Below are positions 7,491-15,002 of a DNA stretch of 64,000 bases, piece after piece. The translations under genes were made by a program, and so were the position numbers. The stretch is from Citrus sinensis. Lineage: Eukaryota > Streptophyta > Magnoliopsida > Sapindales > Rutaceae. The stretch is from positions 31,535,501-31,599,500 of the forward strand of contig NC_068557.1 in the NCBI RefSeq assembly GCF_022201045.2, read 5' to 3'. The notes beneath the pieces were generated by a model. The model ran no database searches. It had not been told where the DNA came from and was given only the letters and a program-made list of their open reading frames with translations. Every line of letters starts with the position of its first letter. Within the stretch, counting starts at the first letter, position 1.

Positions 7491-8863
7491 GGGCGCAACT
7501 TATAAGCAACACTTCCAAAGCCAAAGCGTACACTCGACGCTTCTCTCTCTCTTTAGATCTCTTCAGCGCAAATCTAGGAACTTATCTGCCAGCTTACATA
7601 AGCTTGGATATTAAGTTTTGTTCGGTAATCGGAATCTTCTTAGAGGGAAAAAAAAAAAAAAAATATCTGTTCGTTTTGCAAGGTGTTTTTAAATGTATTT
7701 TTTATAAGTACTTTTAATTCTTTCGTTTGTCTTAGATTCATGTGAATTCCGGTCTGATTTTTATTTTTGCTCTGTGGGAATTGATAATTGGCCAGTCTGA
7801 TACGTACTGCCATAAAAGGTTTCATTTTTTTAAACTCATTTACATTTATTTATTCTAAGATCTAGAAAATTTTTGCTTGGTTGTTACCTGTTAGCAAAGT
7901 TCAATCTTTTTTCAAATTGTGATGAACTTAGTCGGTTCAGCTGTAGTTGAGTACTGCATCTTCATATCTTGAATATTTCTGGTACTCAAAGTTTTGCTGT
8001 AGTTTTTTTTTTCTAATTATAATATTGATTTCTTGACTGTTTTCGGTACCTAATTTTGTTTTTTTTTTTGCTTCATATCTGCTTGTTATAGCATAGTTTT
8101 GACTCTGTTTATTATATTTTTTTGTATAATTAAATGTCATTATTTATTAATAGCTACTGAATCATTTGCTGGTTATGCTGGTTTATTTTTCTACTGCAGT
8201 ACTGGTGTTTAGGTTCTTCCTTTAATGTCATTTGGAATTGAATGAAAAAGGTCAACATGCCTTGGACATCTTCATTTGTGAACTACAGCAGGAACTTGGT
8301 GGTGTTCTTTCGTGTGATACTGTAATTTTGATTTGTTCAGGTTAGATTTTTCTTTCTTTGGCTGGTGGAACTTGCATATGATTTGCTACTATTTTGATTA
8401 AATAATGAATTTAGTTGTTGGTACTTGGTAAAAAGGAAAAGAAATTTATTGGTATGAAAAGAAAAATAGAACTGGAATGTGTAATGAAGTACTAAATATA
8501 TTTTGTCTTTGTCTAATTATCTTTTTGTATGCTGCAAAATAAATTGAAATTTTCAATCATGAGTTTGGAAGATATATCGAAAAAGTCATTTTCCCTGATT
8601 GTTGCCTGGGCACTGCATTATTCATGCTATGATTAAGGAAGAAGAAAAGATCATCTAAGTAATGGTATTATTATTTTTTGGTTTAGTTGATGCATGCTTG
8701 GAATTTTTTACTCGAAATTAGTGAAGATGCATGATTTCAAATTTTCGTGATTTCTAACTTTTTTCTACCAATCCATAATCAAGTTCCCAGGTTATGTGCT
8801 TTTTTCTTGTTGCATTCTCCTTTACTTGATGATATTATGATGGTTCTTGTTCACTGCTGCAGG
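7491..8863 (+). other. presumptive promoter, first non-coding exon and leader intron of the bHLH gene
   Basis: No coding region is supported. A CT-rich stretch near 7540-7565 resembles a plant transcription start. The T-rich DNA that follows ends in a good acceptor (CTGCTGCAG, to 8863) just before the exon that carries the upstream ORF. The first donor site cannot be fixed by eye. Confidence 0.45.
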
Positions 8864-8938: not shown

Positions 8939-9356
8939 ATGTACATTGCAATAACCTTAAAGAGATATCGAGCAGTGAAGGAAGTTGGGAAGATTAAAAT
9001 GAGCGTCGGTGTCATTGCATATTACCAACTAGTACAAGTTTGTCAGGTAATTAACCTCTGTTTGTTTTCATTTTCAATGTTCTTATAACAATAATACTTC
9101 ACTTTTGGAATTTGTATTTCAACTGATGTAGCATATGACATGGCTTCTTATCTTATCATTCTATTTCCACATAAGTTGGAATACAAAACCCAGTGTACCA
9201 TTATTCTTTCATAAATGATTCTTATTACCTTCCAGTAATAAGATGTCTGGTTTTGCCACATTGGACTGGATGAAATGCTTGTTGGTAACTATTGTGCCTG
9301 TCCACTTGCTGTTGCAGGCTGAATATTTCCGTCAGTTGCTTAAACCTGTCACGTAG
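8939..9356 (+). CDS. spliced conserved-type upstream ORF of the SAC51-like bHLH gene (48 aa)
   Basis: Two exons, 8939-9046 and 9318-9356, joined in phase 0 by a GT-AG intron. The peptide starts MYIAITLKRYRAVKEVGKIK, continues with VIAYYQLVQVCQ and, after the junction, ends AEYFRQLLKPVT before TAG. An in-frame stop at 8921 and the lack of any earlier ATG in this exon fix the start. SAC51-family mRNAs are known to carry a conserved-peptide uORF of about 50 codons that represses the main ORF until thermospermine relieves it. Length, position and basic/aromatic make-up fit that role, which I infer from the family. If the intron is retained, the frame reads 13 other codons and stops at 9086, replacing the C-terminus, so splicing could tune repression. 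The uORF stop lies 287 bases before the main ATG. Confidence 0.78.
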
Positions 9357-9643
9357 TCTGCTGATACTAAAATCTGGGGCATTGGGATTTGGAAGATCTA
9401 CCCTCTGGTTGTTTTTGTGCATAAGAAGGCAATGACAGAAAGGAACCATTAGATTGTGTTAACCATTGACTGGGGATAGACAGCTTGCTTATTTTCAGTG
9501 ATGGCCAAAATACCTTGAATTTACTATTAGACCTGTAGTTGCTGTAGGAACCTGAACCAATTGATAGTTGAATAATTGCCAGCTTTTAAGGTGAAAATCC
9601 TCCTTTCCTTTGAATTTTTGTTTTTCCAATTAAGTAGGTCTTG

Positions 9644-10369
9644 ATGCAGAGTGACCAACACTTTCACCCAAAAAGGATAATGCGCCCCTTATTATCTCAA
9701 GTGAGTGGTGATTATGTGCACATTCCAGTTGCATCTCCTTTTGGTGCAGATTTACCTCCAGCTGCAAACCCACCAACACCTTTCCAGGGTGTTGAATTTC
9801 ATCCCTCTGAGGTTTGCCCAAAGAATTTCATTATTTTTGATCAGACTGATCATAGAAGTCAAATCATGTTCCATCCTGCTATTGCACACAAATTTATGGG
9901 TCCTAGCTTTAATTTCCATGCAACTTACATCCAAGACAATTTTGAGAGGCATGATGCTACTAATGTGGGAAGAGAGATGGCCTCTTCTTTTAAAGAGGAT
10001 TCAGATGATATTGATGCGTTGCTGAGCTTGGAAGAGGGAGACGAAGAAGAAGAATACGATGAGGAAGAAGTCAGCACTGCACGAACCTGTGGAATTTATG
10101 GAAGTGACTCTCCTGATTCTACCTCCACTTATGATTCAGAACCCCAACATAATAAGTTTTCTTCCATGCTGAAGTCCTCTGGCAGTAGCAGCAAATGTCA
10201 CAATGGGAAAAAACGTCAGAAATTGAAGAAGATGGTAAATGTCTTGAGGGGTTTTGTGCCTGGCGGCAATGAGTTGAACACTGTTGGTGTTCTGGATGAA
10301 GCTGTGAGGCACCTCAAGTCTCTCAAGGTTGAAGTGCAGAATCTTGGAGTTGGGAATATGAAGAACTAA
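9644..10369 (+). CDS. SAC51/bHLH143-145-like transcription factor (241 aa)
   Basis: Single coding exon. I use the ATG at 9644; the codon before it is TTG, which is not a plant start. Residues 58-78 hold the family signature CPKNFIIFDQTDxRSQIMFHP. Residues about 117-143 are acidic (EEGDEEEEYDEEE). The helix-loop-helix lies near 187-232 (KKMVNVLRGFVPGGNELNT, then VGVLDEAVRHLKSLKVEV). There is no proper basic DNA-binding region before helix 1, as known for SAC51 relatives, which probably act by pairing with other bHLH proteins. SAC51 and its paralogues in Arabidopsis act downstream of thermospermine to restrain xylem differentiation and promote stem growth. The product should be nuclear. Translation is probably controlled by the spliced uORF in the same leader. 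Confidence 0.88.
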   Translation: MQSDQHFHPKRIMRPLLSQVSGDYVHIPVASPFGADLPPAANPPTPFQGVEFHPSEVCPKNFIIFDQTDHRSQIMFHPAIAHKFMGPSFNFHATYIQDNFERHDATNVGREMASSFKEDSDDIDALLSLEEGDEEEEYDEEEVSTARTCGIYGSDSPDSTSTYDSEPQHNKFSSMLKSSGSSSKCHNGKKRQKLKKMVNVLRGFVPGGNELNTVGVLDEAVRHLKSLKVEVQNLGVGNMKN

Positions 10370-12066: not shown

Positions 12067-12138
12067 AAAAGGCCTAAATTGCATCATCATCCTAATCAAA
12101 GTAAAAGGCCTAAATTGCATCATCATCCTAATCAAAGT
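12067..12138. repeat. 36-bp perfect tandem duplication spanning a stop codon
   Basis: Two copies of a 36-base unit (12067-12102 and 12103-12138). The right copy contains the last codons and the TAG (12128-12130) of the first GH3 gene. The left copy repeats them in the 3' UTR. Confidence 0.9.
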
Positions 12139-15002
12139 AAACATGAATTGGAAATGAAACTCCTGAATCGCCAACTAGAATGGTGTGGCCACCGGATGGC
12201 AAAACAATTTGTGCAGAGGAGTCCACAATCTGCAAACTCTCGCAAACATTATACTTGAATTTAACCTTCTGACTTTCTCCTGCTGGTACAGAGACCCTTT
12301 GGAAGCCAATCACTTGCTTGATGGGGCTTGCAGCAAGTTCGTTTGGTGGTTGTGAGTACACTATGATCACTTCGCTGCCATCCCTCTTGCCTACATTCAG
12401 AACTTCAACTTCAAAGTCAAACTGATAGTCATGACATTTGAGGTCATCAACTATCATTGCAGGGCAGGGGGCCTGGTAGGCGCCGCTTGTGTAGTTGAGG
12501 TTGTGGCAATGATTAAACTTGCTCAATTTAATGTGGATTGCTCGCTTTGAGGTTTTCAAATTTGTGTAGTTGAACTTGGTGTAGCTGAGGCCATGTCCAA
12601 ACGGGTACACAGTGGAGCCATTGAAGAATTTGTATGTACGACCTGGATAGCCCAAGCTGTCAATCGGTCTCAATTGCAAGGATGTCATTGGCAACTTTTG
12701 AGCATATTCTTCTTCATACCACGTAATTGGCAACCTTCCTCCTGCAGACAACCAGATAATTAAACAATCAATATTTGTTAGACATTTAATTATGGACATT
12801 GAGCTATGCAAAGATAATGCTAACCAGGATTGTGCTTTCCAAAGACAATATCTGCAATGGCACGTCCACCTTCTTCCCCAGGATAGCCAGCCCACAAGAT
12901 GGCTTTGATTTTTGTATTATCCTTTGCAAAAGAGATGTCAACACCACCTGCAGACATTATTACAAGAATCACAGGACCTTCGGCTGCCTCAGTTACTTGG
13001 TTGATAAGCTGAGTTTGGTAACCAGGGAGTGTTAGGTTCTCTCTATCCAAGCTCTCAGCCTCAATTGTCATATCTAAGCCAGCGACAATTATGGTAGCAT
13101 CAGCCTTCTTGGCAGCTCTCACGGCTGGGAATATCAAGCTCTCATTCTTGCACATAGCTTCACCGCAACCCATTGCATAGCTCACTTTCCCATATGCGGC
13201 AAAGCCATCAATAGGAGCCCTGTACCGACATGGAGCACCTGCATAATTTCCAAGCATGGCCGAGGTGGCATTGGCATGTGGCCCAACAACTGCTAAGTTC
13301 CTGAACTTGGAAGTGCTCAAAGGCAAAGTATCATTATCATTCTTCAAAAGAACTATGCCCTGTCTTGCTGCATCTGCGGCCAACTCAATGTGTTCATCAG
13401 CGCACACATCAGCCTTTCCAAGAGACTTATATTGTGGGTGTCCATCGAACCAACCTAATCTCATTAGCACAGTATAAAGATATTTTAATGACTTGTCAAC
13501 ATCTGCCTCCCTGACCTTCCCTTGTCGGAATGCAGATCCAGTGAAGTCGGGGTAATAATCACCGCAGTCCAAATCCAGACCTGCTTTTAGTGTTCTGGCA
13601 ACGGCATCCTCTCTTGTGTCACCAAGAAATTTATGGTCATCTACCATCACTTCTATTGAGTCACAATCAGAGACTATATATCTGAAAGAAAACGGAAGTA
13701 CAATATTTAATCAAGGTTTGAGTAACGTTTTAATTTCTGTATACACTCAATATGATTAGTTAGGTTCTAAAATATGAAAATATCATTATAATATCATTAT
13801 ACCCATGAAGATCCCATTCTCCTCTAACTGTTTGATTCAAAAGTTTTGGATCAGCACAAGTTGGAATGCCGTTGACACGGTTATAAGAGCACATAATGCT
13901 ACTAGCATCGCCTTCCTTGACACACATTTCAAATGGTCGAAGGAATGTCTCCACCATATCTTGCTCAGTCACCTTCAAAAAAAATAATAATTAAAAAAAA
14001 GGAAAATATAAAAAGAAAACTATAATATATTGTATTGACAAATGGAAATTTTTATTTATTTTTTCTTATTGTACCCTGGCATCAAAATGGAAACGATCAA
14101 CTCCTGACCAATTGTCAACATCATAGGCAGCATAATGCTTGCAACAAGAAGAAACTTTGAGAGGTCTAGAGTTGGGATCCGTATAGTTATCATGTCCCTC
14201 AACATCCTGTAAGCCTCTAACATAATTAGCAGCATACTTGCCAACAATAAATGGATCTTCACCGGGTGTCTCAGTGGCTCTTCCCCATCGAGGATCTCTC
14301 AGTACATTAATTGTTGGACTCCAAAATGTCAATCCAGCACGCCCTAGATTGTACATGGCTCTTGCTTCTGTCGAAACAGCCTGCAATAATTTGACCCAAA
14401 AAGAGAAAAAAAGAAAAAAGAATAATTACCAATGCATGTGCTGTCGCTATGCGTATTAATTAATATTCCTAGTAAAAAGCTTTTAAGAAAAACGGGAAAA
14501 AAAAAAAAAAACACTGAACATGAACTACTTGGCCAATGGTTTTCCACAATGACTCATTGAAAGACGCTGTTGTAAGAATGACTGTTGGAAAACTTGTTGC
14601 ACCGGGGACGAGATCATCGAAATATGTTCCTGGACCCACATTGGAGACGCCATGAAGTGCTTCGGACCACCACTCATACTTAGGCAAACCCAATCTCTGC
14701 ACTCCTTTACCATGGTTTCCTAATTGCAACACTTTTTCGTCTATGGTCATTCTGTCCACCAAATCCTTAACCCTAACAGGATAAGGAAGCGATGAATCGC
14801 AGAATGCAAATGATGATATTTCCAATCCCAGATCATCAAGCCTTTTTGGGTCGCATACATAAGTGAAGTTACTGCCTTTTGGAGTAGCATCGTCCTCACT
14901 TAATGTTGATGCATTGTTAACAACTGCTCTCCCATTAGCGCAAACATTAAGAAGAAGAATGGAGAGACTGATGCCGAGAAGAAAATTCAGAACTTTAGCC
15001 AT
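12128..15002 (-). CDS. GH3 beta-xylosidase / alpha-L-arabinofuranosidase, copy A (806 aa)
   Basis: Five exons, in transcription order 15002-14529, 14380-14075, 13972-13803, 13681-12825, 12741-12128 (2421 nt). The signal peptide is about residues 1-26 ([18 protein letters not shown]). The GH3 N-terminal barrel shows [49 protein letters not shown] and MCSYNRVNG. The nucleophile motif VSDCDSI gives Asp322. The second GH3 domain has [19 protein letters not shown] and LDR.NLTLPG, and a fibronectin-like C-terminal domain follows ([19 protein letters not shown]). Plant BXL enzymes trim xylose and arabinose from wall polysaccharides in the apoplast. This copy lacks introns 4 and 5 of the ancestral six. 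The TATA box at 15060-15066 sits only 25 bp before an upstream in-frame ATG (15035), so 15002 is the likelier start. It is the most downstream gene of the tandem array. Confidence 0.92.

Follow-up and report, generated by a model that had tools for sequence, protein, structure and literature searches.

An intron-interrupted, probable HG15 conserved-peptide uORF ahead of a Citrus sinensis SAC51-family gene, with a last exon kept at the codon level

The closest described systems are the leaders of the Arabidopsis genes SAC51, SACL1, SACL2 and SACL3. The HG15 group consists of two conserved upstream open reading frames (uORFs), one of 18–27 aa (15.1) and one of 43–54 aa (15.3) (PMC2075485, Hayden and Jorgensen 2007, Table 6). 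In the published set, 13 of the 14 C-terminal residues of 15.3 were completely conserved, and eight of nine residues at the C-terminus of 15.1 were hydrophobic (PMC2075485). SAC51 has four exons, with three introns in its leader, and uORFs of 20, 16, 48, 53, and 6 aa, the first and fourth of which are highly conserved (PMC4308196, Kakehi et al.). The conserved Arabidopsis uORF (uORF4/uORF6) represses the main ORF (mORF); the leader responds to thermospermine only if the uORF's own AUG or an in-frame second AUG (uORF6) is present, and the tested leaders that responded all contained such a nested uORF (PMC6504692). A response was reported for the leaders of rice SACL3A and SACL3C and of soybean SACL3, and a lack of response for those of SACL2 and SACL3 from Arabidopsis and of SACL3 from broccoli (PMC6504692). 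SAC51-family mRNAs are targets of nonsense-mediated decay (PMC3284524, PMC4308196), and the way in which thermospermine lifts the uORF block is described as unsettled (PMC6524035, PMC6504692). For the Arabidopsis SAC51 uORF, an intron cutting the uORF itself is not stated in words in the portions of the published texts examined.

The DNA analyzed here, called the window, is a stretch of 64,000 nucleotides of the Citrus sinensis genome (G000:C2:31535501–31599500, plus strand), and positions are numbered from its first base. All window features of the gene lie on the plus strand. As read from the sequence, the uORF runs from an ATG at 8939 to a TAG ending at 9356 and encodes 48 aa once an intron at 9047–9317 is removed. 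Exon A (8939–9046) holds codons 1–36, and exon B (9318–9356) holds 12 codons, AEYFRQLLKPVT, plus the TAG. The intron between them is a phase-0 GT-AG intron of 271 nt (41% T, 33% GC) with CAG/GTAATT at the donor and TTGCAG/GCT at the acceptor, so that the joined peptide is MYIAITLKRYRAVKEVGKIKMSVGVIAYYQLVQVCQ followed, across the intron position, by AEYFRQLLKPVT and the stop. An initial annotation had described an ATG-started 36-codon frame ending at a GT donor and, 271 bases on, an AG acceptor that joins it in phase 0 to 12 more codons and a stop; direct reading of the sequence confirmed both. A second, in-frame ATG within the uORF (8999–9046) would open a 28-aa nested uORF after splicing, and is comparable in kind to uORF6 of Arabidopsis SAC51.

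Pairs of GT and AG that join two reading frames by chance are common. The join in the window was judged real, beyond a chance pairing, because it is homologous with joins in two paralogs found by searching the whole genome (299.7 Mb in 11 contigs, only the best candidates being scored). The search with the window peptide returned the window itself and one place on contig C8 (L002, with a weak E value of 1.3), where the uORF is MVCQAASQTRFRALKYENGSAGKPTIIVRVIACFKPMEDCQ joined to AQYFRQLLKPVT and a stop, 53 aa with a 152-nt intron. The L002 peptide in turn led to a third gene on contig C5 (L017), whose uORF is MVCQAASQTRFRALKYEHGIAGRAAIVVRIIACFQPLKFCQ joined to AEYFRHLLKPVT and a stop, also 53 aa, with a 143-nt intron. 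In all three genes the intron is in phase 0 at the same codon boundary, between CQ and A. Splicing of the window uORF is thus probable on comparative grounds. Because these searches give lower bounds, the genome contains at least three family genes with the uORF. Twelve places in the genome matched the profile PF23173 (bHLH_SAC51), and the C-terminal motif of the uORF lay near three of them (the window, L003/L002, and L017); a motif scan did not find it in the 8–9 kb stretches around the other nine. No match to the uORF was obtained in the contigs searched from other genomes. A sole match in a viral contig (L004) was preceded by stop codons and was judged to be chance. Fragments of the uORF peptide likewise had no match in the published paper text that was searched.

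The main ORF of the window gene (9644–10369) encodes 241 aa and is a divergent SAC51-family bHLH protein. It falls below the cut-off of PF23173 (17.6 bits, E 0.0039, against a cut-off of 28.5 bits; 20.3 bits in the genome scan), whereas the mORFs of L002 (361 aa, 69.2 bits) and L017 (372 aa, 48.1 bits) are above it. The window and L002 proteins align with 24% identity over 142 residues (E 1e-9). We therefore placed the window gene in the SAC51 family on the basis of its two uORFs and this alignment, rather than the PF23173 model. Its short, divergent mORF suggests that it is SACL3-like. The mORF begins 287 nt downstream of the uORF in the window, 241 nt in L002, and 205 nt in L017, and the main proteins are far more diverged among the three genes than is exon B. 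Farther downstream, on the minus strand, lies a glycoside hydrolase family 3 gene (12128–13647), perhaps of the beta-xylosidase type, whose two open frames match Glyco_hydro_3_C (142 bits) and Fn3-like (55 bits). Two head-to-tail copies of a 36-base stretch begin at 12068 and 12104 (together 12068–12139).

Like the HG15 uORFs of SAC51, SACL1, SACL2, and SACL3, the window uORF falls in the published length range and has a conserved C-terminus and stop. The three Citrus uORFs are 48, 53, and 53 aa long, within the 43–54 aa of 15.3, and each precedes a SAC51-family bHLH mORF. In all three the 14 C-terminal residues and the position of the stop are conserved: the end reads CQA(E/Q)YFR(Q/H)LLKPVT-stop, with 12 of 14 residues invariant in this comparison among paralogs of one genome. 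Like its published relatives, the window uORF also has a nested in-frame AUG, a leader interrupted by introns, and a second conserved uORF in that leader. This second uORF, MPWTSSFVNYSRNLVVFFRVIL with its stop (MPW...RVIL-stop; 8257–8325), is 22 aa long and is the counterpart of 15.1; if translation began at the in-frame ATG found at 8242, it would be 27 aa long. Its counterparts are at 840–917 in L002 (25 aa) and 4860–4940 in L017 (26 aa), so that all three have lengths within the 18–27 aa range, and all three end in RVIL-stop. The last nine residues in the window, LVVFFRVIL, are hydrophobic at eight of nine positions; in L002 and L017 they are LNLYCRVIL, with 5–7 of nine, according to how Y and C are classed. 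The presence of the 15.1 uORF upstream in three genes argues for transcripts that start upstream of the 15.3 uORF, and as both conserved uORFs are present in the window gene, its transcripts probably begin upstream of 8242, which is indirect evidence against a start downstream of 9356. Two minor uORFs, MTERNH-stop (9432–9452) and MAKIP-stop (9501–9518), follow in the window.

We found no feature that would bar the window uORF from the HG15 group. It is very probably the 15.3 conserved-peptide uORF of a SAC51-family gene, cut by an ancestral intron that is routinely spliced out. The paralogs L002 and L017 bear out the proposal of the initial annotation that an intron-cut conserved-peptide uORF of this kind lies ahead of a SAC51-family gene. 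A different origin for such exons is known: some supposed conserved-peptide uORFs, e.g., HG17, prove to be fused with their mORF (PMC3426882, PMC9305500), so the uORF exons could be alternative N-termini of the main protein, joined to it in another splice form. The HG17 and aNT families likewise have a conserved uORF in a spliced leader, and there splicing can fuse the uORF and mORF (PMC3426882, PMC9305500); in the window a conserved TAG separates them. In the window, L002, and L017 the same TAG closes the frame ahead of each mORF, and it is conserved together with the C-terminus that precedes it. We consider alternative N-termini extremely improbable.

As an HG15 uORF, the window feature would work as follows. 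The phase-0 intron, inherited from an ancestor that the three family genes share, would be removed routinely, joining a variable N-terminal exon to the exon with the conserved C-terminus. Ribosomes starting at the AUG at 8939, or at the nested one at 8999, would then translate to the fixed end, AEYFRQLLKPVT and stop, and would be held or lost there, keeping translation of the bHLH protein low. This would also leave the mRNA exposed to nonsense-mediated decay, and thermospermine would relieve the block. For the window gene, repression, its relief by thermospermine, and decay are proposed by analogy with published work on relatives. Because of the published nested-uORF rule, a thermospermine response is predicted for the window gene (28-aa nested uORF) and for L002 (17-aa nested uORF), but not for L017, in whose uORF no nested in-frame AUG was present. 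A response of the window leader may be expected on this rule, but is made uncertain by its SACL3-like character, because published SACL3 leaders differ in their response.

The initial annotation had gone further and proposed that splicing switches repression on or off independently of thermospermine: if intron retention were regulated, the retained form of the uORF would be without its conserved C-terminus and would free the bHLH ORF. The change in the peptide is as was claimed, since the frame from 8939 reads 13 intron codons (VINLCLFSFSMFL) before a stop, so that upon retention 13 other residues stand in place of the 12 C-terminal ones. The donors of the three uORF introns, GTAATT, GTTAGT, and GTTTGT, all differ from the plant consensus GTAAGT. 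In addition, SAC51-family mRNAs appear to be stabilized when the acl5 suppressor gene JMJ22, which is homologous to the RNA-processing factor JMJD6, is lost (PMC12436307); this single lead would leave room for a splicing layer.

The comparison among paralogs did not support the switch. Position in the uORF is what the introns share, as is expected of an old, inherited, and routinely removed intron, and constitutive splicing is thus the probable state. The read-through tails that retention would produce are unrelated among the three paralogs (13 codons in the window, 7 in L002, and 16 in L017), and so are the introns themselves, for which pairwise blastn found no conserved element, only short matches with E values of 0.19 or worse. 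Furthermore, a retained window intron adds eight AUGs, of which two, at 9243 and 9270, share the frame of exon B. The first opens an ORF present only upon retention (9243–9356), of 37 aa with the same 12 final residues, and the second gives 28 aa; both peptides still end in AEYFRQLLKPVT and stop. Because they keep the conserved C-terminus, retention would not in any simple way abolish repression. None of the seven AUGs in the introns of L002 (five) and L017 (two) restores exon B in this way. The unrelated tails and introns, together with the AUGs at 9243 and 9270, argue that retention would be neither a conserved nor a clean route to removing the arrest peptide. In Arabidopsis, genomic and intron-free cDNA versions of the SAC51 leader both respond to thermospermine, so the intron is not needed for the response (PMC6504692). 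These points, and the similarly divided uORFs of another gene family described below, make a splicing switch unlikely.

That other family is AdoMetDC (HG3), which has a polyamine-responsive uORF. At least three AdoMetDC uORFs were found in the same genome (L029:1504–1821, L030:1504–1747, and L031:1504–1764), and their mORFs matched SAM_decarbox with 364–382 bits. Like the window uORF, each is cut by a phase-0 intron near its C-terminus, here directly before the last six residues, with Y(S/A)N on one side and C(V/A)R(K/M)PS-stop on the other; the introns are 162, 91, and 102 nt long. They differ from the window in having an unrelated peptide and main protein and in the greater variation of their codons. 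An intron near the end of the conserved uORF was thus present in six of six genes in the two families examined. Both of these polyamine-linked uORF families share this layout.

Exon B stands out as a conserved island against the letters that flank it. Its pairwise identity is 37/39 nt between the window and L002, 38/39 between the window and L017, and 37/39 for the third pair; for the 39 nt after the uORF stop the corresponding values are 13/39, 15/39, and 16/39. A blastn match around exon B of the window covers 48 nt at 92% (E 3e-14), and exon A of the window diverges from that of its paralogs. In the three genes (9318–9356; L002:1528–1566; L017:5584–5622) exon B reads GCT(G/C)AATATTTCCGTCA(G/A/T)TTGCTTAAACCTGTCACGTAG, its codons being kept although the paralogs are diverged.

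For the codon comparison we took residues that are identical in all three genes, leaving out those encoded by a single codon. Exon B had the same codon at 10/10 of these residues, whereas exon A had it at 5/11 and the mORF at 9/34 (exon B vs. mORF, one-sided Fisher test 3.7e-5; vs. exon A, 0.0085). In the three pairwise comparisons, the counts were 10/11, 11/11, and 10/10 for exon B and 19/56, 24/58, and 68/128 for the mORF (p 0.0006, 0.0002, and 0.0025); an alternative pairwise alignment of the mORF gave 23/61, 27/63, and 69/129. Over the 12 alignment columns in which the mORF is most conserved, three of seven shared residues keep their codon, and in the shared final RVIL of the 15.1 uORF none of four do. 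Codons kept in exon B include ones that are rare in the three mORFs, CGT (7%), GTC (14%), and ACG (14%). All of these p values are guides only, because the genes are related and the codons few.

These counts suggest a constraint on the RNA or the codons of exon B besides that on the peptide. Exon B may act partly as RNA, its letters or codons being read in addition to the peptide, through codon-dependent pausing of the ribosome or through pairing with another RNA, a reading that is compatible with the HG15 explanation. Other sources of codon identity were considered. An overlapping AUG-started frame was rejected in all three genes, because the +1 frame is closed by a stop ahead of exon B and no AUG reopens it before the exon. 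A shared RNA fold was unsupported by single-sequence and consensus folds: in the former the mean pairing probability was 0.42–0.53 in exon B and 0.57–0.64 around it, and the consensus fold of exon B with 81 nt downstream reached only −0.66 kcal/mol, with an unfavorable covariation term; pairing between exons B and A was covered by the single-sequence folds only. That neither an overlapping frame nor a supported fold explains the codon identity favors a role as RNA. Nishii et al. in 2023 reportedly described, to judge by the title, a synonymous change in the SAC51 uORF that suppresses acl5; such a change fits this role, and by that title the idea that the letters of the uORF matter would already be partly in print. 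Codon freezing across SAC51-family paralogs was not recognized in any report in the portions of the literature searched.

On the other side, the three genes are related and belong to one genome, so that the counts, from only 10 codons, are not independent. The pairwise contrast with exon A is weak: exon A keeps 6/13, 8/12, and 18/29 codons, and the p values are 0.027, 0.056, and 0.021. The letters of exon B could also be preserved by gene conversion or by a splicing enhancer located where the exon starts. Part of the effect may be general: the AdoMetDC uORFs as a whole keep the codon at 20/38 residues identical in all three (1/4 in the last exon; 37/46 in the closest pair) against 44/174 in their mORFs (p 0.0012), which argues that conserved uORFs may be somewhat codon-conserved in general. 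Exon B exceeds that level (10/10 vs. 20/38, Fisher 0.0046). We give a partial role of exon B as RNA close to an even chance, on the lower side.

More specifically, and tentatively, the last 39 nt could be a codon- or RNA-level element, in which the letters, and not only AEYFRQLLKPVT, would be needed for arrest or for relief by thermospermine; we hold this to be possible, but somewhat short of evenly balanced. Splicing would then join the element to the end of a first exon that has diverged. The uORF intron and peptide are of an ordinary, known kind, and what remains of most interest is the constraint on the letters of these last 39 nt. If a codon or RNA role is true, the RNA or its rate of decoding would be part of the thermospermine sensor; otherwise the peptide alone would be enough.
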